From a virus: DNA of 61,456 nucleotides. Of this stretch, positions 45,424 through 60,897 are shown piece by piece; position 1 is the stretch's first letter; every line of letters begins with the position of its first letter. Position numbers and translations under genes: made by a program. The DNA is taken from positions 1-61,456 of IMG/VR virus record IMGVR_UViG_3300046559_000466; one strand, 5' to 3'. The notes beneath the pieces were generated by a model. It saw only the letters and a list, made by a program, of their open reading frames with translations, was not told the DNA's origin and searched no databases.

Positions 45424-45631
45424 GGAAAAATGCCTAGTCACCATTCAGGCGGCGACGAGGCTAGCGCCGATCAAATCCCGGCGCAATGGTTTTTTCCGTG
45501 CGCCGACGGCTCGGCGACTCGGCGCGCAGAAATAATCTTTCCACGCTATGGAGTTAGAGCGAAAGCAAAAATAATTGGCGCACCCATGCCGGGGCTGGGC
45601 GCGGAAAACAGATCAGCGATGCAGATTTGGA

Positions 45632-46450
45632 TTAGAGAAGCGGCTGCAGATGTGCGTAGGCCAGCCCGACCACGGCGACCGGCTTGCTGGTGTCGTAGTC
45701 GAGATCGCGGCCGACACGCAGCACATCCTTACCGTTGATGTAGTCGCGAAGCTCGATGCCGTCTGGCAGTATCTTGGCGACCCGCACGCTGACTTCGACT
45801 TGGCCGTCGCTGTTCTTGCGCTGGATCGCGTAGGTCTTGCCGTCCGCCACCGGCATCGCCTCGGCCTCGACGCAGAGTGCGTAGCCTTTGCGGTCATGCG
45901 CGTTGTCGCGTGCGGCATTGTCGCGCAATTGAATCGCAAAATGCTGTGCGTCGGGCAGCATCCGATTGGTGATGCCATCGATCATCTGCTCGTTATTCCA
46001 GTCGAACGGGTCGGCTTGAAATACGCCGATCTGAGCGAATCCGACGACTCGGATGGGCCGCACTCCGTGGCGTCGCAACGCCGGTGGGGTTGGCGATACC
46101 GGGCCGTTTCCTCTCACGCTCGCATCATCATGCTGCCCGAGCAGATATGCAACATCTGTCTGTAGAATTTCCGCGATGCGTCCGAGCGCCTCTTGACGCG
46201 GCTGCAAGACTTTGCCTGCGATCACGTCGCGCACCAGTCCAGGGTTAAATCCGGCTTGTTTCGATACGATCTGCGCCTTCGTGCGGCGCATCACGATCAT
46301 CTTGGCGAGACGCTGCTGCAGGATCGTCGGCGGTCGATCCGGTTTGGCCTTGGGTGTATTTTTCTCGGGCATTTGTCGTCTTGTCTGCCACTCAAAGTTA
46401 ATGCGTTGCTGACCGAAATGCGCGGTGGTTGTGCCGATGGTTTTATCCAT
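45632..46450 (-). CDS. CI-like repressor: HTH + S24-like C-terminal domain
   Basis: 272 residues if the ATG at 46450 (GAGGCGAG upstream) is used; a second ATG at 46372 is possible. HTH about residues 50-105 (KAQIVSKQAGFNPGLVRDVI, AGKVLQPRQEALGRIAEILQ). C-terminal half carries RVVGFAQIGVFQADPFDW, YALCVEAEAMPVADGKTYAI and the terminal PVAVVGLAYA, a LexA/S24-like beta pattern. Self-cleavage residues were not certain. Divergent from a Cro-like gene. Likely the lysogenic repressor acting on the intergenic operators. Confidence 0.82.
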   Translation of the reverse strand: MDKTIGTTTAHFGQQRINFEWQTRRQMPEKNTPKAKPDRPPTILQQRLAKMIVMRRTKAQIVSKQAGFNPGLVRDVIAGKVLQPRQEALGRIAEILQTDVAYLLGQHDDASVRGNGPVSPTPPALRRHGVRPIRVVGFAQIGVFQADPFDWNNEQMIDGITNRMLPDAQHFAIQLRDNAARDNAHDRKGYALCVEAEAMPVADGKTYAIQRKNSDGQVEVSVRVAKILPDGIELRDYINGKDVLRVGRDLDYDTSKPVAVVGLAYAHLQPLL

Positions 46451-46451
46451 C
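46436..46451. promoter_or_regulatory. Operator candidate GATGGTTTTATCCATC
   Basis: 16-bp dyad (GATGG / CCATC, spacer TTTTAT) overlapping the repressor's first codons. The identical 16-mer occurs at 59198-59213 and a related GGATAAAACC dyad at 46537-46550. Identity of two 16-mers far apart beside gene starts suggests a repressor site. Confidence 0.5.
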
Positions 46452-46463
46452 TCGCCTCTACTG

Positions 46464-46490
46464 TGGCAAGTGCAATCTGCGCTTGGCAAG
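46464..46490 (+). promoter_or_regulatory. Direct repeat TGGCAAG, 20 bp apart
   Basis: TGGCAAG at 46464-46470 and 46484-46490, two helical turns apart, in the divergent CI/Cro gap. Confidence 0.4.
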
Positions 46491-46528
46491 CTAGACGTTC
46501 GGTCATCCAACGAAAAATGCGACGGTGG

Positions 46529-46557
46529 TTGACGCAGGGATAAAACCCTCCTACGCT
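46529..46557 (+). promoter_or_regulatory. Promoter of the rightward early operon with operator in spacer
   Basis: TTGACG (46529-46534), 17-base spacer, TACGCT (46552-46557). The spacer contains the dyad AGGGATAAAACCCT (46537-46550). Expected transcription start falls within a few bases of the ATG at 46566, and no ribosome site is visible, so the first gene may be leaderless. Confidence 0.6.
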
Positions 46558-46565
46558 CCAAAACC

Positions 46566-46826
46566 ATGCCACACGCCTATCCGACCGAGCAGGAAATCCG
46601 GGCCGCGCTCATCGAGCGCGTGACGGCATACTGCCATACCGCAGACATCACGCCCCGCATCCTGTTCAAGCGCGCGATCAACGATCCCAACTTCTTCAAG
46701 AAGCTTGAGAAAGGCGGCAATTTCACCCTGCGCACCTACCAGCGGGTCCACCACTGGCTCGACCGGCATCCGCGCAAGGGCACCAAGAAGCGCCGCACCA
46801 TGAATGGTCACGGGGGCAACCAATGA
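46566..46826 (+). CDS. Cro-like regulator
   Basis: 86 residues. ALIERVTAYCHTADITPRIL, FKRAINDPNFFKKLEKGGNF and TLRTYQRVHHWLDRHP form a short helical DNA-binding domain of a type found as Cro/antirepressor genes opposite a CI-like gene (pattern recalled). Basic C-terminus (RKGTKKRRTMNGH). First gene of the rightward operon; coupled by ATGA to the next. Confidence 0.7.
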   Translation: MPHAYPTEQEIRAALIERVTAYCHTADITPRILFKRAINDPNFFKKLEKGGNFTLRTYQRVHHWLDRHPRKGTKKRRTMNGHGGNQ

Positions 46827-47101
46827 GCATCGACTCGGTCGATCTCACGGCGGCCGGATCGCATGTCGCGGTGGTGCAGACGCTTGAGACCCTTCGCATT
46901 TGCGGCTGTCGGGCCGAGGCCATCGCGGTGGCACGCGGCGCGATGAATGGCATCGCCGAATGGCTGACCGCCAATCTCGGCCGGGACGCGGCGATGGCTG
47001 CGTTCCAGCGCAAGGCAGATTCGATCATCGCGGCTTCGACCGCACCAGGAGGATTCAATGGCGACCAAGCGGAAGGCTTCAAGGAGCGGCGGCACGCGTA
47101 G
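46823..47101 (+). CDS. Hypothetical helical protein, 92 aa
   Basis: MSIDSVDLTAAGSHVAVVQT, helical (ICGCRAEAIAVARGAMNGIA), then EWLTANLGRDAAMAAFQRKA. No family recognised. Overlaps the GapR-like gene by 44 bases in another frame. Confidence 0.6.
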   Translation: MSIDSVDLTAAGSHVAVVQTLETLRICGCRAEAIAVARGAMNGIAEWLTANLGRDAAMAAFQRKADSIIAASTAPGGFNGDQAEGFKERRHA

Positions 47102-47648
47102 CAGCAAAGCGAAACCATCGGCGCGTCCGCGCGTTGCGCGTCCCGGCGACAACACGCTTGAAGGCAAGGCGCAGCCGTTCCTCAAGCGCATCGAGACGAA
47201 GCTGGACGATCTGGACTCGAAGCGCGGCGCGTACATGGCGGCCTGCAAGGTCGTGCGCGAGGACATCAAAGAAATCTACGGTGAGTCTAAAGACCACGGC
47301 ATCCCGGTGAAGGCGCTCAAGGCGCTGGTCGAGTACCGCGTCTTGGAGAAGCGGCAGGCGAAGCTCGCCGCTTCGTTCGATGACATCGATGAGTCCGCCG
47401 CCTACTCGCAGCTTGTCTCGACGCTCGGCCCGCTCGGCTTCGCAGCGGCGCAGCGCGCCGGTTATCTCCCGACCAACAACAGCGGCAGCGATGACGAGGA
47501 GCGCGACGTGCGCCCGCGCCACATGCGCCAGCCCGAGGCGACGACTAGCGAGCCTGCGCCACGCGCCGACGAGGCCGAGCTTGCTCGCCTCGGCCGTGGC
47601 CATGACGGCGATCCGCCCACCGCGCCCGAGCCGCCGCTTGCGCACTGA
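47058..47648 (+). CDS. GapR/DUF2312-like DNA-binding protein
   Basis: 196 residues, GAGG upstream of the ATG. Residues about 40-105 (FLKRIETKLDDLDSKRGAYM, AACKVVREDIKEIYGESKDH, GIPVKALKALVEYRVLEKRQ) follow the GapR/DUF2312 domain pattern: a coiled-coil helix followed by a 'GIPVKALK' turn. GapR of Caulobacter binds overtwisted DNA and supports replication. Here the N-terminus is basic and the C-terminus is an added acidic Pro/Glu-rich tail. Function by analogy. Confidence 0.68.
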   Translation: MATKRKASRSGGTRSSKAKPSARPRVARPGDNTLEGKAQPFLKRIETKLDDLDSKRGAYMAACKVVREDIKEIYGESKDHGIPVKALKALVEYRVLEKRQAKLAASFDDIDESAAYSQLVSTLGPLGFAAAQRAGYLPTNNSGSDDEERDVRPRHMRQPEATTSEPAPRADEAELARLGRGHDGDPPTAPEPPLAH

Positions 47649-47750
47649 TTCAGAAGGCCGCTCCGACCGAAGCCCCCGAAACCTATCGGAGCGGGAAACG
47701 CCGACGACCAAAAAACACCCTGTCGGAAATCCGACACTACGGGGCGAACC

Positions 47751-48320
47751 GTGCAGCGCATCGTGTTTCCCGAAGGTGGTCGCGTGCTCGCCCTCGATCC
47801 GGCGAGCACCACCGGCTTTGCCTATGGTGCGCCTGACGCGGACGCGCCTGAGATCGGCAGCGTAAAATTCTCCAGAGAGCATGATGTGCGGGCCGACGTG
47901 TTCGGCCGCGCGGTGGCGTGGTGGCGGATGCGAATGCAGACACGCCAACCACATTTGTTGGTGATCGAGCCGCCGATCCCGCCGGGCGACCTGTGGGGCA
48001 AGTCGAACTACGACTCGACCGTCATCCTGCACGGCCTCTACGCGATCTTCATCGGCTTGGCGATGGAATGGCCGATGCCGGTGATCGAAGCGCCGACGCG
48101 GACGTGGCGCAAATATTTTCTCGGCATGGGCAACCTGCGGCGCGACGAGGCCAAGCTCGCCGCCAAGCGCATGTGCCGCCGCCTCAAGTGGGGCGATCCC
48201 GAAAAGTTGGACGACAACGCCGCTGACGCTGCGGGCATGTGGGCCTGGGGCTGCTCGCAAGTCGAGCCAAAGTTGGTTCGACGTATCGAGCCGCTGTTCA
48301 ATGTCGGGGGAGCGCAATGA
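47751..48320 (+). CDS. RuvC-like resolvase/nuclease
   Basis: 189 residues from GTG. RNase-H-fold acids visible: D16 in RVLALDPASTTGFAYG, E73 in LLVIEPP and D155/D159 in DDNAADAAG, with KRMCRRLKWGDP before the last pair. This is the order seen in RuvC-like Holliday-junction resolvases of phages. Expected to resolve branched DNA before packaging. Ends in an ATGA overlap with the next gene. Confidence 0.8.
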   Translation: MQRIVFPEGGRVLALDPASTTGFAYGAPDADAPEIGSVKFSREHDVRADVFGRAVAWWRMRMQTRQPHLLVIEPPIPPGDLWGKSNYDSTVILHGLYAIFIGLAMEWPMPVIEAPTRTWRKYFLGMGNLRRDEAKLAAKRMCRRLKWGDPEKLDDNAADAAGMWAWGCSQVEPKLVRRIEPLFNVGGAQ

Positions 48321-48799
48321 TCGACGTTGTGCTCAATGAAATCGAGTTGATGGTCGCTTCCCACGTCGGCTGCATGCGTCGCGTGTCTTCGATCAAGAGC
48401 GGTTACGACAAGTACAAGCACGCCCCGATCAGCAATTGGCAGACCGACATCGATGGCGCGTGCGCCGAATGTGCTGTGGCGAAGGCGCTCGGCATCTATT
48501 GGACGCCGGGCGTGCGCACGTTCAAAGCGCCCGACGTGGGCGTATATCAGGTGCGCTCGACGGAATATTTTGAAGGCCACCTGATCATCAGACCGAACGA
48601 CAGGAAGGATCACGAGACATTCGTGCTCGTCATCTGCAGTGACGTCCCGGTTTTTCACATCATCGGTTCATGTCTGTGCGGCTATGCCAAGCAGGCTCAC
48701 TTCTGGCGCGAGGACAAGAACGGATGGTGGGTGCCGCAGTGTGAATTGCTCGAATTCACAATCGAACCGCAGCCGCAACGGCAAGAGGCAGCAGAATGA
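48317..48799 (+). CDS. Phage protein with possible PD-(D/E)XK-like core
   Basis: 160 residues; start MIDVVLNEIELMVASHVGCM from the ATGA overlap. The segments DGACAECAVAKALGIYW and APDVGVYQVRST, then LVICSDVPVFHIIG and AKQAHFWREDKNGWWVPQ, recur in an uncharacterised phage family (recalled). The PDxG...QVR order is reminiscent of a nuclease core with Q for E. Function unproven. Confidence 0.62.
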   Translation: MIDVVLNEIELMVASHVGCMRRVSSIKSGYDKYKHAPISNWQTDIDGACAECAVAKALGIYWTPGVRTFKAPDVGVYQVRSTEYFEGHLIIRPNDRKDHETFVLVICSDVPVFHIIGSCLCGYAKQAHFWREDKNGWWVPQCELLEFTIEPQPQRQEAAE

Positions 48800-49131
48800 C
48801 CCGCCTCGTCCTGCCGCAGCGCCGCCCAACGTTCACGCTCGACATGTGCGACGAGGCGGGCCGTCCGGACCTCACTGTCGCGTACTCGATTTTCGAGCCG
48901 CCCGATGCGCCGCCGCCGTACAGCGTGGCCGAGGTGTTTCTCACCTCGCGCAAGATCGGATCGAGCTTTGAGGCCATTGCGCGCGACGCCGCGATCCTGA
49001 TGTCGCTGGCGCTGCAGCACGGCTGTCCGCTCGACACGATCCGGCATGCGCTCACCCGCAACGCGGATGGCACGGCGCAAAGCCTGATGGGCCGGGTGGT
49101 GGATCGTATCAGCGAGGAGTCACGCGAATGA
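48796..49131 (+). CDS. Stand-alone TSCPD-domain protein
   Basis: 111 residues. VAEVFLTSRKIGSSFEAIAR, DAAILMSLALQHGCPLDTIR and HALTRNADGTAQSLMG match the TSCPD region normally found at the C-terminus of B12-dependent ribonucleotide reductases. No reductase gene is in the window. As a free domain it may bind the host enzyme, which is inference. ATGA overlaps both sides. Confidence 0.7.
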   Translation: MTRLVLPQRRPTFTLDMCDEAGRPDLTVAYSIFEPPDAPPPYSVAEVFLTSRKIGSSFEAIARDAAILMSLALQHGCPLDTIRHALTRNADGTAQSLMGRVVDRISEESRE

Positions 49132-49406
49132 TGAAGGTCGGCAAATGTCACGCACCTTTGGCCAATGGCAGCGATTGCCATGTCTGCCGGATTGCTCAGG
49201 CGCTCATCGCGGCCGAGCTTGCCTCGAACAACAAGGGGCCGCTCGACGCCAAGCGATGCGTTGAGGCTTTGACGGAAGTGCTCGCACGCTTCCTGTCCGA
49301 AGCAAACGAATTCGAGACGTGGGGATTTCTCACCGATCTCTATGGCATGAGCCGCCACTATCGCGATGAAGACGATCCGCTTGCACATCCGATGGGGCAC
49401 GCATGA
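49128..49406 (+). CDS. Hypothetical protein, 92 aa
   Basis: Starts MMKVGKCHAPLANGSDCHVC (CHVC, with further C/H spaced like a small metal site), then helices (KRCVEALTEVLARFLSEANE). No family recognised. ATGA overlaps both sides. Confidence 0.6.
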   Translation: MMKVGKCHAPLANGSDCHVCRIAQALIAAELASNNKGPLDAKRCVEALTEVLARFLSEANEFETWGFLTDLYGMSRHYRDEDDPLAHPMGHA

Positions 49407-49573
49407 TCCGCACAGTTGAAATCCATACGCCGCAGGAAGTTGACGCGATGGTCGAAAAATTACGCTCGCAGCTTCCGCGCTTGCTACGCGAACAGATCGT
49501 CAGGCCGTTTTGCATCGAGGATGACCTGAGAACGCTGGCGTACAACACACTGACTGACGAGAAGTGGCGATGA
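49403..49573 (+). CDS. 56-aa helical protein
   Basis: MIRTVEIHTPQEVDAMVEKL, RSQLPRLLREQIVRPFCIED. ATG overlaps the preceding stop and the TGA overlaps the methyltransferase ATG, both as ATGA, which is the main support. Confidence 0.62.
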   Translation: MIRTVEIHTPQEVDAMVEKLRSQLPRLLREQIVRPFCIEDDLRTLAYNTLTDEKWR

Positions 49574-50178
49574 TCGAAAACGGACCATTCGCTGGTCTGC
49601 AGCGCGAACGCTACGGCGTGATCCTGGCCGATCCGCCGTGGAAATTCGAGACGTGGGGATCGCAAGCAAATTCACCGACTGACGCCAATCGCTACTACGC
49701 GACGATGAGCATTGCGGAGATTGCCGCGCTTCCGATTGGCGACCTCGCTGCTCGCGATTGCGTGCTCCTGGTCTGGATCGTCTGGCCGACGATGCATCGC
49801 GCGCTCAACGTCATCGACTGCTGGGGCTTCACCTATAAGACGTGTGCGTTCGCGTGGATGAAGGCCAACGGCTCGCAGCTTCAGATGTTCGATGACGATG
49901 TGCCGGTGCAGATCGGCAACGGCTATTGGACGCGGGCCAACTCCGAGGTGTGTCTGCTTGCGACGCGCGGAAGTCCCAAGCGTCTGAACGCGGACGTGCG
50001 CCAGGGCATCATCGAGCCGCGTCGCGAGCACAGCCGCAAGCCCGACTGCATCCACGAGCGCATCGAGCGGCTGGTCGCTGGCCCCTACGTCGAACTGTTC
50101 GCGCGGCAGCGGCGACCCGGCTGGGATTGCTGGGGCAACGAGGTGGATAAATTCAACGAGCGAAGGGTGACCGCATGA
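49570..50178 (+). CDS. MT-A70 family adenine DNA methyltransferase
   Basis: 202 residues. Catalytic DPPW at 21-24 in GVILADPPWKFETWG; further family features YYATMSIAEIAALPIGDLAA, LLVWIVWPTMHRALN (motif X-like) and RREHSRKPDCIHERIERLV. Methylates adenine N6 in DNA, probably for protection from host restriction or regulation. Coupled by ATGA to both neighbours. Confidence 0.9.
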   Translation: MIENGPFAGLQRERYGVILADPPWKFETWGSQANSPTDANRYYATMSIAEIAALPIGDLAARDCVLLVWIVWPTMHRALNVIDCWGFTYKTCAFAWMKANGSQLQMFDDDVPVQIGNGYWTRANSEVCLLATRGSPKRLNADVRQGIIEPRREHSRKPDCIHERIERLVAGPYVELFARQRRPGWDCWGNEVDKFNERRVTA

Positions 50179-50438
50179 CCGACCATTTGACCCGCTGCGG
50201 CGTGCCGTTTGGCCCGATCAAGCTGCGCATCTTCGACCTGATCGTGACCCAGCCGGGCATCACCACGCGCGAGATCGCACGCACCATGTTCCCGTTACGC
50301 GAGGAGCATTCCGCACACGACAACGTTCGCACGCATATCCACCAGATCAATGTCGCGCTCGCCAACACGAGCTTCAGCATCAAGGGAAAATCCGGCAAGG
50401 GCTTCCGCTTGGTCTTCAAGACTGCGGTTGCTGCGTGA
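50175..50438 (+). CDS. Winged-helix DNA-binding protein
   Basis: 87 residues. GPIKLRIFDLIVTQPGITTR then EIARTMFPLREEHSAHDNVR and THIHQINVALANTSFSIKGK form a winged-helix HTH with a transcription-regulator wing (SGKGFRLVF). Small relatives are typical of alphaproteobacterial phages (recalled). ATGA overlap with the methyltransferase. Confidence 0.72.
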   Translation: MTDHLTRCGVPFGPIKLRIFDLIVTQPGITTREIARTMFPLREEHSAHDNVRTHIHQINVALANTSFSIKGKSGKGFRLVFKTAVAA

Positions 50439-50445
50439 GGTTCAC

Positions 50446-50781
50446 ATGAAAACCGGCGACACCGAGCACATCGATCCTGCCGGGCTGACAGCCTGGTTTT
50501 CCGAAGCGCAGCCCGGCGCGCGGCTCATCTATGCACGCGGCAATCTCGCGCGTGATCGTGGGACTGCGTTCTGCACCTACCCGGCCACGACGCTCGACGT
50601 CGTCGCGCGGCAAGTGCGGAACTGGGAGCACAAGGGCTTTGCGTTCCTGCTGCAGCGGCGCATACGCGACCAGCGGTACGCCTACATCGTCGTGCGTGCG
50701 CACGCGAAACGCAAGGAGATCGGGGACGAACGTGCAGAGCTTTCAGTGCGGCTGGGGGCAATGGCGGACGATGCTGCATGA
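50446..50781 (+). CDS. Hypothetical protein, 111 aa
   Basis: MKTGDTEHIDPAGLTAWFSE, AQPGARLIYARGNLARDRGT, then a basic helical half (QRRIRDQRYAYIVVRAHAKR). GAGG upstream of the ATG; a longer frame reads through the preceding gene and is rejected. ATGA overlap with the PriCT-2 gene. Confidence 0.6.
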   Translation: MKTGDTEHIDPAGLTAWFSEAQPGARLIYARGNLARDRGTAFCTYPATTLDVVARQVRNWEHKGFAFLLQRRIRDQRYAYIVVRAHAKRKEIGDERAELSVRLGAMADDAA

Positions 50782-51089
50782 CACCGGAACGCACCAAGAA
50801 TGATATCGAGGATGCATTGCAGTGCATCTCGCCAGATTGTTCGCAGGACGTTTGGTGGCGTGTCGCCGCTGCGATCTACGACGCTTTGGGCGACGAAGGT
50901 TTCGATCTTTTCGATGCGTGGTCGGCGACGGCGCGCAAGCCGGGCATGTATCCAGGTCGCCGGGCATGTTGGCGCAAGTGGGTGAACACCCGCAAATATT
51001 CCAAACGGTGGGGCAACTACAATAGCGACACGCGGCGACCGATTACGGTCGGGACACTGTTCTTCTATGCCGAGACGGGAGGCCGGTAA
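50778..51089 (+). CDS. PriCT-2 domain protein (primase-associated)
   Basis: 103 residues. DVWWRVAAAIYDALGDEGFD, LFDAWSATARKPGMYPGRRA, CWRKWVNTRKYSKRWGNYN and ITVGTLFFYAE match the PriCT-2 domain, normally the C-terminal domain of primases of mobile elements. Here it stands alone; the TOPRIM/helicase lies 1.5 kb further on. Stop and next ATG overlap (TAATG). Confidence 0.72.
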   Translation: MTPERTKNDIEDALQCISPDCSQDVWWRVAAAIYDALGDEGFDLFDAWSATARKPGMYPGRRACWRKWVNTRKYSKRWGNYNSDTRRPITVGTLFFYAETGGR

Positions 51090-51508
51090 TGATCTATCGC
51101 GGCCGATCCGATCTACGCGCGCATGGCCTCGAAATGTATCTCACGCTGCCGTGCGCCTGCCCTGGTCCTTGGTATCGGATCGTTGCGAAGCGGCAGGCAA
51201 ATGGCATCGAACGATTCCAGCTTCAATGTATGGACTGCGATCATCTCTGTGGCGGTTCGATTGCGCTCGCGAAGCTTTCCAAGGATGTGCAGCGCGCCGC
51301 TTCACGCATCGATGTCGGTAACCCCGCGCAGGCGTGCGCACGGTGTGGTGAAGCCGAGGCTGAGCTTCATCACTGGGCACCGTTTGCGGTGTTCAATGAT
51401 TTTGACCAATGGCCGACGTCCTGGTTATGCCGCAAGTGTCATTGGACGTGGCACACCCGGATGAACGGCTACCGGTGGGCACCTCCGTCAGGAGTGCGCG
51501 GGCCATGA
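51089..51508 (+). CDS. HNH-like Cys-rich protein
   Basis: 139 residues. C-terminal half CARCGEAEAELHHWAPFAVF, DQWPTSWLCRKCHWTWHTRM carries CxxC...HH...CxxC...H, the zinc-HNH arrangement of recombination-associated or homing nucleases. N-terminal CACPGPWYRIV and CMDCDH are further Cys pairs. Probably a structure-specific nuclease or DNA-binding protein. Confidence 0.68.
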   Translation: MIYRGRSDLRAHGLEMYLTLPCACPGPWYRIVAKRQANGIERFQLQCMDCDHLCGGSIALAKLSKDVQRAASRIDVGNPAQACARCGEAEAELHHWAPFAVFNDFDQWPTSWLCRKCHWTWHTRMNGYRWAPPSGVRGP

Positions 51509-52350
51509 CCGATCCCCGCCCCGCTCCGCTAGTCCCTCCCGAGGTCGATTTGCGCGACTTCGGGTTCATGCCGTTAGAGGGTGACCGGCTGCGCAAAAGT
51601 CGCACTTGGTTGCGTGCTGCAACCGACCCATGGGTGGCTTACGCGTGCATCAATTTGTGGATCGAGGCATGGCACCAAGTGCCCGCCGGATCGCTGCCCG
51701 GCGACCGGGTAGCTGTCGGCCGGATGTCGGGTAGCACCCCGAAGGTCTGGCGTCGCATTGCCGATCAGGTGCTCGATGGTTGGATCGGTCCATGTACCGA
51801 TGGGCGTTACTATCATCCGGTCGTATGCGAGAAGGCGCTTGATGCTTGGGAACGAAAAAGGAAACAGCGACAACGCACTAAGGCGGCGACGGATGCCGCA
51901 GCCGAACGCCGTCGCCAAGAGCGGCGCACATCCGTAACGGACGACAGCAGAATGGACGTAACGGACAACGTAACGGATCAAAGGAACCATCCGTTACGGA
52001 ATCCAAGGGACAGGGACAGAGACAGTAAGGGAAAAGAAGACTCCCTCTTCCCCTCCGGGGAAGAGGGCGAAACGCATTCTTCGCCCTTGAGGGGCGAAGC
52101 GAAAGAATCCGTAACGGACGTTTCACATGAAACGCAGGTCTATCGCCGAGGGAAAGAAATCCTCGGCGACAATACCGCCGCCCTGATCAAAAAACTCGTC
52201 AATGCCACCAACGGCGACTGGGCTGAAGCCCTCACAATCATCGAGATGGCCGCGAAGAAGGAAAACCCGCGCGAGTACATCGGTGGCGCAATCGTAAAAC
52301 GAAAACCAACCAGCAAAATGGACGAAGGCTATGGCGACTGGGCGCTGTGA
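51505..52350 (+). CDS. DUF1376-type replication protein
   Basis: 281 residues; start MTDPRPAPLVPPEVDLRDFG from the ATGA overlap. About 20-120 match DUF1376 (ATDPWVAYACINLWIEAWHQ, PAGSLPGDRVAVGRMSGSTP, DGWIGPCTDGRYYHPVVCEK), a domain of phage replication initiator-like proteins. Then a basic linker rich in Arg/Lys/Asp and a C-terminal helix with IGGAIVKRKPTSK. Followed by primase components. Confidence 0.72.
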   Translation: MTDPRPAPLVPPEVDLRDFGFMPLEGDRLRKSRTWLRAATDPWVAYACINLWIEAWHQVPAGSLPGDRVAVGRMSGSTPKVWRRIADQVLDGWIGPCTDGRYYHPVVCEKALDAWERKRKQRQRTKAATDAAAERRRQERRTSVTDDSRMDVTDNVTDQRNHPLRNPRDRDRDSKGKEDSLFPSGEEGETHSSPLRGEAKESVTDVSHETQVYRRGKEILGDNTAALIKKLVNATNGDWAEALTIIEMAAKKENPREYIGGAIVKRKPTSKMDEGYGDWAL

Positions 52351-52639
52351 CAGCGCACATGAGGCACTGCAAAAACTGCACATCGTTGTGCCACGTCAAA
52401 ACGTCGGCGCGTATCTCACGATATGCCCGCAATGCTCGCATCTGCGGCGCAAAAAACGCAATCGCTGCCTGTCGGTGAAGATCACCACCGATGCGGTGCT
52501 CTACCACTGCTTCCACTGCGACTGGAAAGGAGCCGAGTTCTATGGACAGCAAAGTGCTCGGCATGAAGGCCGCCGAGGCTTTCGAAACCCGCGGGATCAG
52601 TTGCGAGACGGCCGCGCGGTTCGAAATCTATACCGCTAG
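52331..52639 (+). CDS. Primase zinc-binding domain encoded separately
   Basis: 102 residues; GAAGG precedes the ATG. Core CPQCSHLRRKKRNRCLSVKI, TTDAVLYHCFHCDWKGAEFY is a CPxC...CxxC ribbon followed by WKG, the signature of DnaG/T7-type primase zinc domains. The frame then runs 98 bases into the helicase gene in another phase (residues about 72-102 are probably unimportant). In related phages the ribbon is fused to the helicase. Confidence 0.68.
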   Translation: MATGRCDSAHEALQKLHIVVPRQNVGAYLTICPQCSHLRRKKRNRCLSVKITTDAVLYHCFHCDWKGAEFYGQQSARHEGRRGFRNPRDQLRDGRAVRNLYR

Positions 52640-54110
52640 ATCGGTGCAAAATTCGAACGGCAGACGCGAAGTCGTGCCCGATCCAGACGGCAACATCATC
52701 GTCTTTCCAACTATCGAGCACGGTACCACCGTCGCCGAAAAATATCGCCGCATGCCGTGGGAAATCGAGGACGGCCGACCGCGCTTCTGGCAACGTGAAG
52801 GCGGACGCCGCACATTCTGGAATTCCGACGTCTTGGACGATCCCGCACTCACCGATGGCAGGATGCCGCTCGTCATCACCGAAGGCGAAGTCGATGGATT
52901 GACCGCAATCGAAAGCGGCTGGCCACTCACCGTCTCAGTGCCGGATGGCGCACCACCCGTGCCCGAAGGCCGTAAGCCTGACGATCTTGACCCTCTCGAT
53001 CCCGAAGCTGAGCGAACGAGCAAATTTCAGTTCATCTGGAATAATCGCGACCGCCTCAAGCCGATCAAACGATTCATCATCGCCAGCGACGACGACGAAC
53101 CCGGCCAACGTCTCGCCGCCGAACTCGTGCGCCGATTGTCGGCAGCACGCTGCCTGTACGTGACGTATCCGGAAGAGCCAAGAGTTCTCGGCAAGAACGG
53201 CAAGCTGCGCCCGTGCAAAGACCTCAACGAAGTCTGTATGCATTTCGGATTAGAGGCCGTGCGCGATGTGCTCAATAACGCCAAGCCATACCCAGTGCGC
53301 GGACTCTATCGGCTGTTCGACTATCCCGATCTGCCGCCGCTCGTCACCTACAAGACCGGCCTCGGAATGCTTGACCACAACCTCACGATCTTTCCCGGCG
53401 AGTTCATGGTAGTCACCGGGATTCCAGGCCACGGCAAAAGCACTTGGGTACTCAACATCGCGCGACAAATGTCCGACAAGCACGAATGGCGCACCGCGAT
53501 CTACTCGCCGGAAATGTCGATCATCCCCCACCTCCGCGACAAGCTGCGCCGCATCAAGCTCGGGCGTAGACCGTTCTACCTCGATCTCAACGAAATCGCC
53601 CGCGTCGATGGCTGGATCAACGATTGGTTTCTATTCATCGATGACGATCCAGCAGGCAACGATCTCGATACAGACCTCACGCTCGATTGGATTCTCGACC
53701 GTGCAACCGACGCAGTGTTGCGTGATGGCATACGCCTACTGATCATCGATCCCTGGAACGAGGTCGAACACGCGAGACGCAAGGACGAATCAACCGGGGA
53801 ATATATCGGCCGGGCGATCCGCATGCTGCGTCGATGGGGAAAACAATACGGTGTCGCCGTCATCGTCGTCGCACACCCAACCAAAGACGTCGGCAAGGAC
53901 GGCAAGTCGCGACCACCGACGCTGTACGACATCGATGGGTCCGCGCACTGGTACAACAAGCCCGACCATGGCGTCGTGATCTACACCGACGAGCCAAACA
54001 CCGCGACCGCGTACATCCGCAAAGTTCGGTTCGATGACTCAGGCTCAAAAGGCCACATCAAATTTCGCTTCGACGTCGAAGCCTGCGCCTACAAATCCCT
54101 GGATGACTGA
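52542..54110 (+). CDS. TOPRIM-helicase (DnaB/Twinkle-like replicative helicase-primase)
   Basis: 522 residues from MDSKVLGMKAAEAFETRGIS, with AAAGGAG nine bases upstream. TOPRIM motifs EGEVDG (about 112-117) and SDDDEPG (about 182-188). RecA-like domain from about 270: Walker A TGIPGHGKST (about 290), Walker B-type RLLIIDPW (about 405) and VIVVAHPTKD. Unwinds DNA at the fork and possibly primes, together with the zinc domain encoded just before it. Confidence 0.88.
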   Translation: MDSKVLGMKAAEAFETRGISCETAARFEIYTARSVQNSNGRREVVPDPDGNIIVFPTIEHGTTVAEKYRRMPWEIEDGRPRFWQREGGRRTFWNSDVLDDPALTDGRMPLVITEGEVDGLTAIESGWPLTVSVPDGAPPVPEGRKPDDLDPLDPEAERTSKFQFIWNNRDRLKPIKRFIIASDDDEPGQRLAAELVRRLSAARCLYVTYPEEPRVLGKNGKLRPCKDLNEVCMHFGLEAVRDVLNNAKPYPVRGLYRLFDYPDLPPLVTYKTGLGMLDHNLTIFPGEFMVVTGIPGHGKSTWVLNIARQMSDKHEWRTAIYSPEMSIIPHLRDKLRRIKLGRRPFYLDLNEIARVDGWINDWFLFIDDDPAGNDLDTDLTLDWILDRATDAVLRDGIRLLIIDPWNEVEHARRKDESTGEYIGRAIRMLRRWGKQYGVAVIVVAHPTKDVGKDGKSRPPTLYDIDGSAHWYNKPDHGVVIYTDEPNTATAYIRKVRFDDSGSKGHIKFRFDVEACAYKSLDD

Positions 54111-54878
54111 ATGACGAAGCACACACAGCGCCGACCTCGCCAGCGCAAAGCCAAGCCGCAACGCGTCCACGATCTGCGACCGCTCTACGGCCCGATCCCA
54201 GGCCAGCCGCAGATGGCTGCGCTTACCATCGAAGAACCGGGTGGCCTGCTCTCGACCGACCAAGCCACCCGCGAGATCGGGCAGCGACGCGACGGGCTGC
54301 TCGCCCATCCACGCGGTGAACACGAATGGGTGCCACCGATGCGGCCCACCATCATCGTCGCCCAAACCATTCGCGGCGATCCGCTCGGCAAGATGTTCGC
54401 TCGCCATCAGATCAATCCGGTGCGCTACGCCGCTGGCCGCAGCTACCAGGAACTCCACACCGTCAGCCAAGTCGGCCGCATCGCTGCCACCGATCCATCC
54501 CGCCCCTACGTGCAGGGTGGCCGCTTCGCCGAACTCATCACGGATCGCCAACGCCGGGCTGCTCGCCGCCTGCGGATGATCGATGCTGCGATTCTGAAAT
54601 ATCTCGGCTCGCTCGGGCTGTTCGTCGTCCGCACCGTCCTGATCGACTGCAAGCCGCTCGCAGCCGCAGCAGACCGCACAAAAACCGACAAATGGACGCG
54701 CGGCTTCCTGTTCTCGGCAAGCCTGACCATGATTGCGATCAAGCTCGGCATGGCCACCGTGGGCCTGGAACGCGAGGACACCGAAGCCAAAGCCGAGGCC
54801 GACCGCGCCAGGGCCAACCACGAGCGCCAGCAGGCACAACGGGTAGTGGGACCATCGTCCAAGGTTCGATCATCTTGA
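54111..54878 (+). CDS. Hypothetical phage protein, 255 aa
   Basis: Starts directly after the helicase stop. Basic N-terminus (MTKHTQRRPRQRKAKPQRVH), then FARHQINPVRYAAGRSYQEL, HTVSQVGRIAATDPSRPYVQ and RLRMIDAAILKYLGSLGLFV. Helical; no recognised family although this pattern is familiar from the ends of early operons, where late regulators lie (inference). Confidence 0.62.
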   Translation: MTKHTQRRPRQRKAKPQRVHDLRPLYGPIPGQPQMAALTIEEPGGLLSTDQATREIGQRRDGLLAHPRGEHEWVPPMRPTIIVAQTIRGDPLGKMFARHQINPVRYAAGRSYQELHTVSQVGRIAATDPSRPYVQGGRFAELITDRQRRAARRLRMIDAAILKYLGSLGLFVVRTVLIDCKPLAAAADRTKTDKWTRGFLFSASLTMIAIKLGMATVGLEREDTEAKAEADRARANHERQQAQRVVGPSSKVRSS

Positions 54879-54975
54879 CGGATGGGATGAAATGAGCGTA
54901 TTAAAAAAATCAGATTCGCGGAATCCGGGTTTTCTCCTTCCCTGGGTTTTCGTTGGTCACCCCGCAAACGATGCA

Positions 54976-55013
54976 CGCCGCCTCGGCTTTCCGCCCTGGC
55001 GGCGTTTGCTTTT
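54976..55013 (+). terminator. Candidate terminator of the rightward early operon
   Basis: Stem ACGCCGCC / GGCGGCGT with a 14-base loop, then TTGCTTTT. Lies 100 bases after the last gene of the operon. Confidence 0.5.
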
Positions 55014-55028
55014 GGGGAGCTTCCTCCC

Positions 55029-55220
55029 ATGATCGAGATCGTCTTCAGCATCAAAGCGCCGCGCTTCACTGCAGGCGTTGTCACGCGTGACAACCGGGTG
55101 ATCGCCGCTGCACCCATCGTGCGCAGGCTGATCGGCATGACCGATCAACAGGTCGCCGAGCAATGTCGCGCCAACGGCTGGACGCTCGAACACAGTGCGC
55201 CTGTCGTCAGCGATGACTGA
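55029..55220 (+). CDS. Hypothetical protein, 63 aa
   Basis: MIEIVFSIKAPRFTAGVVTR, RLIGMTDQQVAEQCRANGWT. Beta-then-helix pattern of a small domain. Overlaps the HNH gene start by 8 bases. Confidence 0.62.
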   Translation: MIEIVFSIKAPRFTAGVVTRDNRVIAAAPIVRRLIGMTDQQVAEQCRANGWTLEHSAPVVSDD

Positions 55221-55551
55221 GCCGCTGCAGCCACCCATTGCGCTCAAGGACTGGCGCAAGAACTGGTACGGCACCTCAATCTGGCAGCGACGTCGCACCC
55301 TGCAGCTACAGCAGCATCCCCTTTGCGCCATGTGCTTGGCACAGGGCGTCACCACGCTTGCTACCGTAGCTGACCACGTCGAGTCGCATGGTGGTGACTG
55401 GAATAAGTTTCGCCTCGGCAAGCTGCAGTCTGTCTGCAAGCCCTGCCATGACAGACACAAGCGTGTGCTCGATGAGCGTGGCTACACATGCGATGTGGAC
55501 AATGATGGCTGGCCTACGGACCCACGCCATCCAGCCAATCGTACTGCATAA
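55213..55551 (+). CDS. HNH endonuclease (packaging-module type)
   Basis: 112 residues from MTEPLQPPIALKDWRKNWYG. HPLCAMCLAQGVTTLATVAD, HVESHGGDWNKFRLGKLQSV and CKPCHDRHK give CxxC...H...H...CxxCH, the phage HNH pattern of genes next to terminases. Such nucleases assist cleavage at packaging. No terminase gene follows in the window, a point of note. Confidence 0.82.
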   Translation: MTEPLQPPIALKDWRKNWYGTSIWQRRRTLQLQQHPLCAMCLAQGVTTLATVADHVESHGGDWNKFRLGKLQSVCKPCHDRHKRVLDERGYTCDVDNDGWPTDPRHPANRTA

Positions 55552-55562
55552 GGAACGCCACC

Positions 55563-55964
55563 ATGCACGTCTACGTCACATGCAATACGACGAAGGTGAC
55601 CAAACGAATATTGAAGATGACGCGTCGTCTTCGGCACATCAAGCAAGTCGAAGTCGGCACGATGTTGAGCGATTGGCAAACACAAGACATGCATCGCCAT
55701 CGTCCTGGTACAAAACGATATAGAGGTCTAGGCAAAGCACTCACACTCGTGCGTCCGCATTCGTTGTACGAGATGGAGCACAGCAAAGCGTATGGGCGCA
55801 AGCTCACACGCATCGCCAAGCGGTCATCCCGATCCAAGCGCAAGAGAGACTACGTGCTGCCGACAAGTTACCTTCTAGCGTCCCAGCGTCCCATCTTGCG
55901 TGAGGTACTGCAGGACAAGCTCATAGGGCGCTTCCAAACGTTGAGAGACAGCATTCGTTGGTGA
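55563..55964 (+). CDS. Hypothetical basic protein, 133 aa
   Basis: MHVYVTCNTTKVTKRILKMT, then DMHRHRPGTKRYRGLGKALT and LTRIAKRSSRSKRKRDYVLP. Highly basic; nucleic-acid binding is possible. AGGAACGCCACC before the ATG. No family recognised. GC is lower than in neighbouring genes. Confidence 0.55.
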   Translation: MHVYVTCNTTKVTKRILKMTRRLRHIKQVEVGTMLSDWQTQDMHRHRPGTKRYRGLGKALTLVRPHSLYEMEHSKAYGRKLTRIAKRSSRSKRKRDYVLPTSYLLASQRPILREVLQDKLIGRFQTLRDSIRW

Positions 55965-56473
55965 AAGGTGGGGGGTAGGTGCCGCACTCCCGTCCTCGCG
56001 ATTGATGACTGATCCGAAAAGCATCCCCACATTCGACACGCGCCGCTCTCTCCATGCCGATCATCGGCACAGGCTCAGCAAAGGCAGGGGGGGGAGTGCC
56101 AAAAATTTTTGGATCGCCATTAGTCGCGGCGCGCCCGCAGTCATTTTTTAGCGCCCGCGAAATTGGCTTATGCCCCAATGGGTTTGGCGATCTGCCCGGC
56201 CGCACAAAGGCCGAGAGTCTGGCCAACGTTGGTTTGAGGTTAAGTGGTTGGCGCGCTGCCGGTTAGGATGCGGGCACGTTAACGCCGATCAGGCGTGACT
56301 CCTGTCCAGGTTGGACAAGGGTCGAATCGGGAACGAAGGCAGGACAGGCTGGGAGAGGTGCAGGTTAAAAGCCCTGCAGAGCTTGCTGGCGCGCTCGTGG
56401 GTGCGACTTTGGGGCGGCCCGCTGGGACCATGGCCCGGCGGGTCGTCGCCGCTGAGCGGCCGAGGGAAAAGGG
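55965..56473. other. Long intergenic stretch before the ParB-like gene
   Basis: About 510 bases. Contains a run of eight G, AT-rich AAAAATTTTT and a GC-rich inverted repeat near 56420. Short plus frames (56054-56266; 56295-56477, whose stop overlaps the next ATG as ATGA) have weak codon character and no ribosome site, so I do not call them. Could hold a promoter for the packaging-side genes. Confidence 0.35.
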
Positions 56474-57046
56474 ATGAAGCTGGCAATCGAGTATCGGCAG
56501 GCTGAGGCGCTCAAGCCCGATCCGCGTAATGCGCGGCTGCATTCGGACGCACAGATAGATCAGATCGCGACGTCCATTCGCCGGTTCGGGTTCGTCAACC
56601 CGGTGCTGGTGCGCGAGGGCGGCGAGATCATCGCGGGCGAAGGGCGCTGGCGAGCGGCACGCAAGCTCGGGCTGGCCGAGGTGCCGGTGATTGAGCTTCG
56701 CGATCTGACCGAGACGCAGTGCCGGGCGCTGGCGCTGGCCGACAACCGGATCGCGCTCAACGCGTCATGGGATGCCGAGCTACTGGCGCACGAGATTGGC
56801 GCGATGATCGCGAGCGGCGAGAAGGCGAGCGATCTGGGCTTCGACGTCAAGGAGATCGACGCGCTGATGCATCCTGATGTCGCGACGGTCGAACAGGTCA
56901 AGGTCGGCGCGCTGGAAGACCGGTTCTGGATCGCGGTGCGCGGGCCGCTGAAGGATCAGGCGCAGGCGCTGCACCGGCTGCGACAGGTGATGGCGGACTT
57001 CCCGGCCATCGAGGTCGAGCTAGGTACGACCGGGTACGAGGAGTGA
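56474..57046 (+). CDS. ParB-like nuclease-domain protein
   Basis: 190 residues, GAGGGAAAAGGG upstream of the ATG. N-terminal ParB/Srx domain: LKPDPRNARLHSDAQIDQIA, FGFVNPVLVREGGEIIAGEG, RWRAARKLGLAEVPVIELRD with the GEGRWRAAR core; then LADNRIALNASWD, and a C-terminal helical part. Proteins of this type precede terminases and methyltransferases in many alphaproteobacterial phages. Confidence 0.85.
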   Translation: MKLAIEYRQAEALKPDPRNARLHSDAQIDQIATSIRRFGFVNPVLVREGGEIIAGEGRWRAARKLGLAEVPVIELRDLTETQCRALALADNRIALNASWDAELLAHEIGAMIASGEKASDLGFDVKEIDALMHPDVATVEQVKVGALEDRFWIAVRGPLKDQAQALHRLRQVMADFPAIEVELGTTGYEE

Positions 57047-57058
57047 GACAATGCGCAG

Positions 57059-57742
57059 ATGCGCAGGGGCGGCTATCGGATTGTCTTTCTCGATGTCGGC
57101 ACTCGCCCGCCGCTCGTGTTTGTCCCCGACCGCCTGATGTTTCTCGCCAGCACGCGGGCCGCCAAGATCAAGAACGCGCAGGCGAGCAAGCCCGCCAAGG
57201 TCGAGATCAGGCGCAACGTGCTCGACGCGCTCGGGCGCGACGTCGCGGTGTTCGATGCGTTCGCGGGTGCGGGCGAGATGTATCGCAACGTCTGGCACGA
57301 GGCTCGCGCGTGCGTCGGCTGCGACCTCGACTGGCATCGCGACGAACGCGTGGCCTACGTCGCCGACAATCGCCGGGTGATGCGCTGCATCGATCTCGGC
57401 GCGTTCGCGGTCTTCGATCTCGACGCACACGGGTCGCCGTGGGAGCAAGCGACGATCCTGGCGGCGCGGCGCAAGGCGGCACCGGGCGAGCGCATCGGCC
57501 TCGTGCTGACCGACGGCTCGGGCCTCGACGTGAAGCGGGGCAACCTCTCCTACGCTTTGGCGCATCTTGTCGGGATGCCGCGCCACGTCACCGGCGCGAT
57601 CCGCTGGCACGACGAGATCATCACGCGGGCGATCAACGAGGTGGCGCGGCGGATGGGGTGCGAGATTGAGACGCGCTGGCAGGCTGGCAAGGGCAAGGGC
57701 GCGGCGGTGGTCTACGTCGGCGTGGTCCTGCGCGGGCGCTAG
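57059..57742 (+). CDS. SAM-dependent methyltransferase-like protein
   Basis: 227 residues. AVFDAFAGAGEMYRNVWHEA (66-82) is a glycine-rich motif-I-like loop, then VGCDLDWHRD (acid D89-L-D91 for the ribose), RVMRCIDLGAFAVFDLDAHG SPWEQ and LVLTDGSG. A similar protein often follows the ParB-like gene in Rhizobiales phages (recalled). Substrate unknown. Its stop overlaps that of the convergent gene at 57739 by four bases. Confidence 0.7.
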   Translation: MRRGGYRIVFLDVGTRPPLVFVPDRLMFLASTRAAKIKNAQASKPAKVEIRRNVLDALGRDVAVFDAFAGAGEMYRNVWHEARACVGCDLDWHRDERVAYVADNRRVMRCIDLGAFAVFDLDAHGSPWEQATILAARRKAAPGERIGLVLTDGSGLDVKRGNLSYALAHLVGMPRHVTGAIRWHDEIITRAINEVARRMGCEIETRWQAGKGKGAAVVYVGVVLRGR

Positions 57743-57954
57743 TGCTGCTGCACGAACACGCGCCATAAGATCGCAACGGTCATCGCAAGGTTGAAGCCGA
57801 TCATCCACTTCACCAGCAAAAGATCAGCGCGAATCTCGGCGATCCTGTTTTCGAAAGCCGCCACTTCCTCGGCAGCTTCGCGCGCAAGATCATCGGATGC
57901 ATTCGCCGCGCGCAGTGCCGCGTACAGCTTGCCCATCATGATTGCCATTTTCAT
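57739..57954 (-). CDS. Coiled-coil membrane protein, 71 aa
   Basis: MKMAIMMGKLYAALRAANAS, acidic coiled coil (DDLAREAAEEVAAFENRIAE), then a membrane span (MIGFNLAMTVAILWRVFV). Typical DUF1640-like design. Convergent with the methyltransferase gene and overlapping it by four bases. Confidence 0.68.
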   Translation of the reverse strand: MKMAIMMGKLYAALRAANASDDLAREAAEEVAAFENRIAEIRADLLLVKWMIGFNLAMTVAILWRVFVQQH

Positions 57955-58163
57955 TTTTCCTCGAACCGATAGAGCCGCCCGTCGCGATCCCTGCAGACCC
58001 AGTTGTGCGCGTTCGCTCCCATGCTGAGATATTCCATCCCGTGGGTAGCGCAGACGGCCTGCTGGGCGGGACGCGTCACCATGAAGTAGTTGGCGAACAG
58101 CATTCCGAGTCCGAAGAGGGTGAGGGCCGCCACGCCGAGGACAAGAGCCGTTCCATACGTCAT
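57951..58163 (-). CDS. Single-span membrane protein, 70 aa
   Basis: MTYGTALVLGVAALTLFGLG, span to about residue 28, then periplasmic CATHGMEYLSMGANAHNWVC and RDRDGRLYRFEEK. Two Cys could form a disulfide. ATGA overlap with the next gene. Confidence 0.66.
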   Translation of the reverse strand: MTYGTALVLGVAALTLFGLGMLFANYFMVTRPAQQAVCATHGMEYLSMGANAHNWVCRDRDGRLYRFEEK

Positions 58164-58164
58164 T

Positions 58165-58479
58165 CTAGTGCCCCGTCAGCCTGACCAGCGCGAGCATGGT
58201 GCCGACGTTGACGAGCCACGATGACACGACCAAGCCGATGATCCATTTCAGGATGTCATTTTGGCTTCCGGTGATGACGCTGCGCACGTCGGCGATGGCC
58301 GCGCGCAACTCGTCCTTGGTCGCTAGCGCCGCGAGATCATCCTTGGTCGCGAGCACCGTCAGATCAGGCAGGCCCGCCGCTTGGTTCACCGCGTCGGCGA
58401 CGGCTTCGGCCTGATCCTGCGTGAAGCCGTGCTGCCGCAGATCACGGGCGATGGCGAGGGTGTCGAAGCGCGGGTTCAT
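58165..58479 (-). CDS. DUF1640-like coiled-coil membrane protein
   Basis: 104 residues. FDTLAIARDLRQHGFTQDQA, EAVADAVNQAAG, coiled coil (ATKDDLAALATKDELRAAIA), then a span (ILKWIIGLVVSSWLVNVGTM). Pattern matches the CCDC90/DUF1640 layout of phage and host membrane coiled coils. ATGA overlap with the upstream gene. Confidence 0.7.
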   Translation of the reverse strand: MNPRFDTLAIARDLRQHGFTQDQAEAVADAVNQAAGLPDLTVLATKDDLAALATKDELRAAIADVRSVITGSQNDILKWIIGLVVSSWLVNVGTMLALVRLTGH

Positions 58480-58724
58480 GGCTGCACAAACTTCATGAAC
58501 GCGGCACCGGCCGCAAACAGTGCTGCCCCAGCGGTCAGTAAACTAACCGCAATCGGCAAAATGAGCACCCACGGCGCGTAGCGGATTTCCTGCCGCTTGC
58601 GGTCATGATCCGCATTGATGCGCTTTGTGTCGGCGTAGATGCGCTCGTGGTCGGCGAGCATCTGATCGATGTGGGCGATCTTCTCGCGAACATCGAGTTC
58701 GACATGCGATTCGGCCGTGGTCAT
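58476..58724 (-). CDS. Small coiled-coil membrane protein, 82 aa
   Basis: MTTAESHVELDVREKIAHID chosen as the start (a long upstream frame is spurious). Charged coiled coil (QMLADHERIYADTKRINADH) and a C-terminal hairpin of hydrophobic residues (LILPIAVSLLTAGAALFAAG). ATGA overlap downstream. Holin-like topology is possible. Confidence 0.66.
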   Translation of the reverse strand: MTTAESHVELDVREKIAHIDQMLADHERIYADTKRINADHDRKRQEIRYAPWVLILPIAVSLLTAGAALFAAGAAFMKFVQP

Positions 58725-58864
58725 GCATCGAATCCTTTGTGATCGGATCGTAGCACACCGAAGTGGAAAAAACCACCAGCGGTGAGAGCACTGGACCGTC
58801 CCCGCTCGCGGTTGTTGACCTCCTCTAGGCTCTCCGCAAGTCGCCGGGGCGGGCCGCGCACTCT

Positions 58865-59179
58865 TCAGGGTTTGGCGGCTGCGGCCACCGGCACGGGCGT
58901 GACAAGCTCCCACTTGTAGCCTGCCGCTTCCATGCACGAGAAGAACAGTTTCTGATTGGTGATCATCGTTCCGTAGCTGGACCCGCCGTAGCCGTTCACG
59001 TAGCTGCCGGTCTGCGGCTGCTGTGCCTGTTGAAGGCAGGCATAGCGTTCCTTCAGGAACATCTCTTCGGTAGCGCCCGCTTTCACCCAGTGCATCGGCG
59101 GCGGCGGTGCCGTCGCGCAGCCCGCCATGGTCGCCAGTAAGGCCAGCGGAAGCGCCCGCAACACTCTCATTTTGGTCAT
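58865..59179 (-). CDS. Putative outer-membrane lipoprotein
   Basis: 104 residues from MTKMRVLRALPLALLATMAG. Lipobox LATMAGCATAPP with Cys at about residue 21; the mature part (FLKERYACLQQAQQPQTGSY) has Cys residues for disulfides (SCMEAAGYKW). Such lipoproteins recur in Rhizobiales genomes and phages (recalled). The identical 16-bp operator-like site lies just upstream at 59198. An ATG at 59212 in frame (MDKTI...) is the alternative start. Confidence 0.72.
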   Translation of the reverse strand: MTKMRVLRALPLALLATMAGCATAPPPPMHWVKAGATEEMFLKERYACLQQAQQPQTGSYVNGYGGSSYGTMITNQKLFFSCMEAAGYKWELVTPVPVAAAAKP

Positions 59180-59197
59180 CCCCCGTTTCTTGGTTGA

Positions 59198-59213
59198 GAT
59201 GGTTTTATCCATC
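59198..59213. promoter_or_regulatory. Operator candidate, identical to 46436-46451
   Basis: GATGGTTTTATCCATC, same 16 bases as beside the CI-like repressor gene, in front of the lipoprotein gene. Suggests repressor control of the gene cluster at 58.8 kb. Confidence 0.5.
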
Positions 59214-59284
59214 GATCAGCCAATGGTCAACGGCAAGCCGCTGGCACCATGGCCAAGAGTTGGGTCATCTCTCGGCACTGGGCA

Positions 59285-59316
59285 CAAAAAAAGGGGCGGC
59301 CCGCGAAGGCCGCCCC
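59285..59316 (-). terminator. Terminator for the leftward gene at 59327
   Basis: Minus-strand stem GGGGCGGCC / GGCCGCCCC with a six-base loop, followed by eight T. It lies ten bases after the stop of 59327-59734 and separates that group from the lipoprotein gene. Confidence 0.88.
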
Positions 59317-59326: not shown

Positions 59327-59734
59327 TCACGACCCCTGCCTCGGCTGTCTCGGGCAGGGGTAAGCCTTGCGCAGCCCGGCGAACGCCGTGACCGACGCCG
59401 GGGCCTCAAGCTTTAGCGACGAGTAACCGCGCGCACCGCCCGCCTCTTCGCGCGTGAAGGCGATTACCTCGTTGGCACCGATCTGCAATGGCATGCAAAT
59501 GCCAGCGAAGCTGACGTACTGCGAGGTTGGGTCATACGTCGCGAGCGCAAGCGCGCGATAGGCATCGGCGATGGCCGCCGCGTAGAAGCTGCAAGCGACC
59601 TGATGATAATCGACAGGGCTGTCGCAGTGAGCAAGGAATGCGCTCGTGGTGAAGTAGTCGGCCGCGCGAGCTTGCCCGGTCGCTAGAGTAGCGACGGCCA
59701 GGATGGTGGCCGCCAGAGACTTGATCGTGTTCAT
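59327..59734 (-). CDS. Secreted Rap1a/Tai-like protein
   Basis: 135 residues; MNTIKSLAATILAVATLATG QARA signal peptide, mature part YFTTSAFLAHCDSPVDYHQV, ACSFYAAAIADAYRALA, then CMPLQIG. The Cys/Ala-rich pattern of small Rap1a/Tai immunity-like secreted proteins is similar, as recalled. Periplasmic. Preceded by the AAAGGAGTCACC leader. Confidence 0.65.
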   Translation of the reverse strand: MNTIKSLAATILAVATLATGQARAADYFTTSAFLAHCDSPVDYHQVACSFYAAAIADAYRALALATYDPTSQYVSFAGICMPLQIGANEVIAFTREEAGGARGYSSLKLEAPASVTAFAGLRKAYPCPRQPRQGS

Positions 59735-59751
59735 GGTGGTGGGTGACTCCT

Positions 59752-60093
59752 TTAGCGTGCGTCTTCGACGCGACAGTTGGCGCTTGCGCCTGCGTCTTTG
59801 ACCGTGATCATCACTTCGCCATAGACGGTGGCACCAGCGCCGACATTTTCCAGTGTGGTAAAATCGACCGCAAGCGGCCGTTTGTTGGCGTCGAGCAGCG
59901 CGCATTGAACCTTGATACTTTTGTAAGGGCGCGGCCCATTGATGAGCGTGAATGTCGTGTTCTGATAGTTGCCCGTGTTGCTGTAGGTGCGTCCCACCGT
60001 CACTTTGATGGCATCGTCGGAATCGGCGCTGGCGTTCTGTCCGCTTGCGGCGAGCGCAGCGGCGAGCACGATGGTTGCGAGTATGGTCTTCAT
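59752..60093 (-). CDS. Secreted hypothetical protein
   Basis: 113 residues; MKTILATIVLAAALAASGQN, signal peptide to about residue 23, mature beta-rich part (VTVGRTYSNTGNYQNTTFTL, then KVQCALLDANKRPLA, NCRVED). Two Cys may form one disulfide. GGAGTCACC leader. Confidence 0.65.
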   Translation of the reverse strand: MKTILATIVLAAALAASGQNASADSDDAIKVTVGRTYSNTGNYQNTTFTLINGPRPYKSIKVQCALLDANKRPLAVDFTTLENVGAGATVYGEVMITVKDAGASANCRVEDAR

Positions 60094-60115
60094 GGTCGGT
60101 GACTCCTTCATGGGT

Positions 60116-60334: not shown

Positions 60335-60373
60335 GGTGGTGACTCCTATCCTTCGGGGCTGGTTGGTAGATGG

Positions 60374-60682: not shown

Positions 60683-60686
60683 GTTT

Positions 60687-60875: not shown

Positions 60876-60897
60876 TGGGTGACTCCTTCGTTGGATT

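Follow-up and report, generated by a model that had tools for sequence, protein, structure and literature searches.

We analysed the entire record of a virus contig, IMGVR_UViG_3300046559_000466 (61,456 bases, no host attached; hereafter the window), and describe a 16-bp dyad that recurs at several of its promoters and probably serves as a phage operator. Between 46.4 and 46.6 kb, the gene of a presumed lysogeny repressor (minus strand, 45632-46450; 272 aa when read from MDKTI, but probably 246 aa with a start at 46372) diverges from a rightward early operon. The latter contains RuvC-like, DNA primase/helicase, and ParB-like genes, and its first open reading frame (ORF), in the Cro position, encodes 86 aa (46566-46826, plus strand). 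Our own weighted scan of -35/-10 pairs, covering about 370,000 pairs on both strands, places the predicted repressor promoter TTGCCA-18-TAAAAC (46440-46469, minus) among the best 16 and the predicted early promoter TTGACG-17-TACGCT (46529-46557, plus; -35 at 46529-46534, -10 at 46552-46557) among the best 24. A dyad at 46436-46451 (minus strand GATGGATAAAACCATC, core ATGG-W6-CCAT at 46437-46450) covers the repressor -10 TAAAAC (46445-46440). A variant, CAGGGATAAAACCCTC (46535-46550, plus), fills the spacer of the early promoter with a perfect AGGG-W6-CCCT dyad. The preliminary description had rightly seen the related AGGGATAAAACCCT in this 17-nt spacer, at 46537-46550; its true position is one base away, 46536-46549. 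The two dyads are spaced by 99 bp, one for each promoter, so that the divergent repressor and early genes share symmetric sites in both promoters, as in an immunity region. Nowhere else do two perfect dyads lie close together on a divergent gene pair, and this locus adjoins the presumed repressor. Only about 8 nt separate the -10 from the start of the first early ORF (46552-46566), whose message would thus have little or no leader.

The plus-strand form of the dyad at the repressor promoter, GATGGTTTTATCCATC, recurs exactly at 59198-59213, and the coordinates given earlier for the two copies, 46436-46451 and 59198-59213, are correct. The distant copy lies, on the minus strand, at the predicted promoter of a lipoprotein gene, TTGACC-17-TAAAAC (59202-59230, minus), whose -10 falls within the dyad. 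This promoter is among the best 7 of the pairs scanned (tied second to seventh). At three core loci (46437, 46536, and 59199), the dyad coincides with a promoter-like pair in the best 24. A stricter promoter scan, requiring T at the last -10 position and 9/12 matches, picks up none of the three promoters. A strong leftward intrinsic terminator, with a GC-rich stem followed by T7 (59293-59316, minus), precedes the lipoprotein promoter by about 60 bp, as expected for an independent promoter.

An exact 16-mer repeat is unremarkable in itself, since we estimate that about 0.8 would be expected in 61 kb. We judge this one to be non-random because of its dyad symmetry, its position at promoters, and the existence of further copies. 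It is also the longest distant repeat in the window once local repeat arrays and paralogous stretches are set aside. Allowing up to three mismatches, GATGGTTTTATCCATC has four matches (46436-46451, 59198-59213, 46535-46550 on the minus strand, and 26910-26925, the last absent from the preliminary description) against 0.21 expected, and none of 100 shuffles reached four. The scan of the whole phage for the motif, which had been proposed as a check, gave further perfect copies at 26911 and 30840. Hence, the core ATGG-W6-CCAT occurs four times in the window (26911, 30840, 46437, and 59199) and never in any of 300 Markov shuffles. The motif was defined by the copies at 46.4 and 59.2 kb, and those at 26.9 and 30.8 kb are independent of that definition. 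More broadly, there are nine perfect NNGG-W6-CCNN dyads, six of them upstream of genes, against a mean of 0.08 and a maximum of 2 in 300 shuffles, and the whole pattern with up to two mismatches has 11 matches for 1.73 expected; the shuffles keep the composition of the whole genome and intergenic gaps are probably richer in A+T, so the true expectations are somewhat higher but should stay far below the counts. Counting 5-bp dyads in general told us little, as dyads in coding sequence prevail among them. Three of the nine perfect dyads (4454, 17803, and 41345) are inside genes; we regarded them as probably incidental and left them out of consideration. These sequence comparisons support well a real family of operators in this phage, comprising about 5 to 9 short symmetric dyads.

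On the minus strand, both 16-mers read MDKTI, and the proteins diverge thereafter, as noted before. The preliminary description took these frames as gene starts, which is very unlikely. In GATGGATAAAACCATC, the codons ATG GAT AAA ACC ATC arise by an accident of its letters, and the ATG precedes the predicted transcription start: with TAAAAC as the -10, translation must begin later. We therefore rejected MDKTI as a true start and regard these frames as a by-product of the dyad. Translation of the repressor would then probably start from the methionine codon at 46372, giving 246 aa, and that of the lipoprotein from 59179 or 59170, the latter with GGGGG at the spacing of a ribosome site.

The two additional perfect copies stand upstream of other leftward genes. 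The first, GATGGATATAACCATT (26910-26925, minus), precedes the gene of a 224-aa protein (26169-26843, minus), which is followed by an HNH endonuclease gene (25604-26182). It contains TATAAC as a possible -10, without a convincing -35. The second, CATGGATATTTCCATC (30839-30854, minus), lies upstream of a small ORF (30428-30799) and of a probable tyrosine integrase of 443 aa (29226-30557, minus). This copy keeps the arms of the dyad around a different centre, ATATTT, has no convincing promoter, and might be covered by the end of a doubtful alternative ORF (30804-31031). The catalytic part of the integrase matches PF00589 below the cut-off (E 0.045/7e-4), R..H..Y-type residues were recognised by eye, and we count this integrase-like gene, at that level of similarity, as support for a temperate life cycle. 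An in-frame search with the small ORF upstream of it gave no matches, so calling it an excisionase would be a guess. The integrase gene has ACTAATCCGG repeated in tandem at its 3' end (29205-29238), a possible attachment or core site.

Contigs of the same phage from other samples (L005/L104, L006/L007, and L161) conserve the sites at 46.4, 46.5, 59.2, 26.9, and 30.8 kb. The two copies at 26.9 and 30.8 kb are both conserved in L161, and the dyad at 59198-59213 is also present in the L006, L007, and L174 contigs. The exact 16-mer is contained in 96 stretches of IMG/VR, and none of those outside this phage has a second copy seated in a promoter. In IMG/VR, an inverted pair 75-105 bp apart is found only in this phage; in genomes, such pairs gave 33 scattered matches, with no relative of the repressor beside them. 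Contigs sharing only replication or recombination genes, found through the helicase and the RecE-like protein, contain no perfect copy of the dyad in about 142 kb; a single copy, in G002, departs from it at one position. The absence of the dyad class from these distant phages, whose hosts also lack an assignment, fits a factor that is specific to the phage rather than common to a host.

We consider it likely that the 16-bp dyad serves, at several dispersed promoters, as the operator for a dimeric repressor encoded by the phage. In the dormant state, the repressor dimer would occupy the dyad copies that cover core promoter elements. The rightward early operon would be silenced through the dyad between its -35 and -10, and the operon of the lipoprotein and membrane proteins at 59.2 kb through the dyad over its -10. 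The integrase region (30.8 kb) and the gene pair at 26.8 kb would probably be silenced too. With a dyad over the -10 of its own promoter, the repressor would limit its own synthesis, and induction would open all these promoters together. Binding and repression are what we infer from the sites, and the binder would probably be the product of the divergent ORF (45632-46372/46450, 246 or 272 aa). Its putative helix-turn-helix (HTH) part has weak matches to PHROG 4 transcriptional repressors (E 4e-4) and to an S24-type regulator (E 7.5e-4), and it is covered by weak PHROG 4/5823 and NCBIfam matches.

Several observations weigh against this reading. The HTH_3 and Peptidase_S24 profiles do not match the presumed repressor, and the S24 autocleavage domain PF00717 has no match in the window, although the sensitivity of hidden Markov models is limited and a decayed domain is possible. 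We found no homologue of the repressor in phage, IMG/VR, and genome collections, nor in 398 genomes of one phylum, which leaves no relatives in which to follow a joint change of operator and repressor. A structure model from the single sequence was too poor for use (predicted local distance difference test score, pLDDT, of 32). Each promoter has a single site, and no convincing -35 accompanies the sites at 26.9 and 30.8 kb. The phage encodes two other HTH proteins, and the binder may instead be a factor of the host. It is conceivable, if rather unlikely, that the dyads are operators whose main binder is another protein: the Cro-position product (46566-46826) or one of these HTH proteins (21947-22330 and 27586-27798). 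Both of the latter pass the HTH_3 cut-off, which the presumed repressor does not. In lambda-type switches, the repressor and Cro usually bind common operators. A similar site precedes the start of the HTH gene at 27586-27798, with near-copies of the dyad at 27534 and 27366. Yet these copies are imperfect, and two close perfect dyads on a divergent pair are found only beside the presumed repressor.

The dyad could also be no phage operator at all. It could be a promoter module, in which a repeated -10 region (GGATAAAAC) is symmetric by chance, or the site of a host regulator. TAAAAC or TATAAC does fit a -10 hexamer at three sites. However, the GATGG/CCATC arms are conserved outside the hexamer, the copy at 30840 retains them with another centre, and the dyad at 46536 sits in the spacer of a different and better promoter. 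The distant contigs also lack the dyad, and this explanation is improbable. Least probable of all is a coding or chance coincidence, with two unrelated genes happening to begin with MDKTI. That an exact 16-mer repeat is no rarity in 61 kb, and that the 96 stretches of IMG/VR show no second promoter-seated copy outside this phage, would allow for it. Against it stand the four perfect copies, with none in shuffles, the predicted transcription starts downstream of the MDKTI codons, the third variant in the paired promoter, and the lack of any likeness between the two proteins beyond MDKTI. The judgement in the preliminary description that a coincidence was the less likely explanation agrees with this.

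The repressor operator proposed here would tie the lipoprotein gene to the immunity region. Such a shared operator is well supported, because the dyads overlie -10 elements and are symmetric, the terminator isolates the lipoprotein promoter, and two further perfect copies exist. The link suggested previously is thus likely, and even broader than proposed, taking in the integrase region, a gene at 26.8 kb, and probably others, but it would not extend to the whole envelope cluster at 58-61 kb. The operator at 59.2 kb would govern only a leftward operon of the lipoprotein and small membrane-type genes, from 59.2 to 57.7 kb, since the strong terminator (59316-59293) makes the genes at 59.3-61.4 kb a separate unit. 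The lipoprotein gene itself (58865-59170, minus; start MRVLRALPLALLATMAGC) has a frame open to 59212. Downstream of it are genes for an 82-aa protein with a coiled coil and a membrane segment, as read from the sequence (58476-58724, minus), and for a 104-aa CCDC90-like protein (58165-58479, minus; PF07798, E 4.7e-8, at the cut-off). A perfect GTGG-W6-CCAC dyad between the lipoprotein gene and the next (58763-58776, minus) is a candidate operator that could instead be the tail of a weak terminator.

Other features lie nearby or elsewhere in the window. In the separate unit at the right end, a near-identical ribosome-site block, GGAGTCACC, precedes each of the small genes at 59730-61350 (minus), as might result from duplication of a start cassette. 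One contig of this phage (L007:1-7756) extends 7.7 kb beyond the window end and encodes an ATPase and an HNH endonuclease, which shows that the record is incomplete. Both L006 and L007 end at window position 56140, suggesting an assembly break or a variable junction. The stretch 32700-34150 is densely packed with short, imperfect repeats rich in C and T (CTCCTGCCGYTCC and its relatives) and has a strong strand skew; within it, 59 bp are repeated exactly and in direct orientation at 32737 and 33891. A candidate operator with one mismatch, ACGGAAAAAACCAT (45486-45499, minus), is located 41 nt upstream of the RecE-like exonuclease gene. Another, ATGGATATTTCCTT (27534-27547, plus), lies upstream of the second HTH regulator, a Cro/C1-type protein and candidate trans factor (27586-27798, plus), and has a 13/14 match at 27366-27379 (minus). 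The two form inverted near-copies (13/14 bases) of ATGGATATTYCCTT at a divergent regulator pair, a possible second switch region.

Dispersed operators are already known from a few other phages, and we claim no sequence kinship with them. The C1 repressor of P1 has 22 dispersed asymmetric 17-bp operators (PMC8546580). As with P1 C1, a single operator sequence is found here at several separate transcription units, including the promoter of the repressor itself: four perfect copies (26.9, 30.8, 46.4, and 59.2 kb) and the 46.5 kb variant. Unlike the asymmetric 17-mers of P1, the sites are short, symmetric ATGG-W6-CCAT dyads, about 5 to 9 in number, and no sequence relation between C1 and the presumed repressor was seen or expected. 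In mycobacteriophage L5 and its kind, a monomer binds the stoperators, which are asymmetric 13-mers oriented with transcription and number 20-30 per genome; many are in short intergenic gaps, and they were proposed to stop elongation (PMC9283540, PMC6550527). The present sites are dispersed as well, but they are symmetric dyads rather than oriented asymmetric ones, are few, and sit on core promoter elements at three loci. The arrangement of repressor and early promoters, which diverge and have symmetric sites on top of promoter elements, recalls lambda CI and Cro. In contrast with the tripartite operators at two promoters in lambda, where several cooperative operators serve each promoter, there is one dyad for each promoter here, with extra sites kilobases away, and the presumed repressor has no recognisable S24 cleavage domain.

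A wider possibility, which we put forward only tentatively, is that one short symmetric operator links the integrase region and the envelope operon to three regulator genes (the presumed repressor at 46 kb and, at 27.4 kb, the second HTH gene with a divergent winged-helix gene), with a lipoprotein-dependent change of the cell surface occurring only when dormancy ends. The named phage collection that we searched contains no close relative of this phage. If the operator family is as proposed, the motif alone would predict which genes are silenced in dormancy, among them an envelope operon that one would otherwise take to be constitutive. The phage would then be a further case of dispersed, symmetric operators seated in promoters, and would offer a simple way to test whether distal accessory operons are part of the lysogeny switch.

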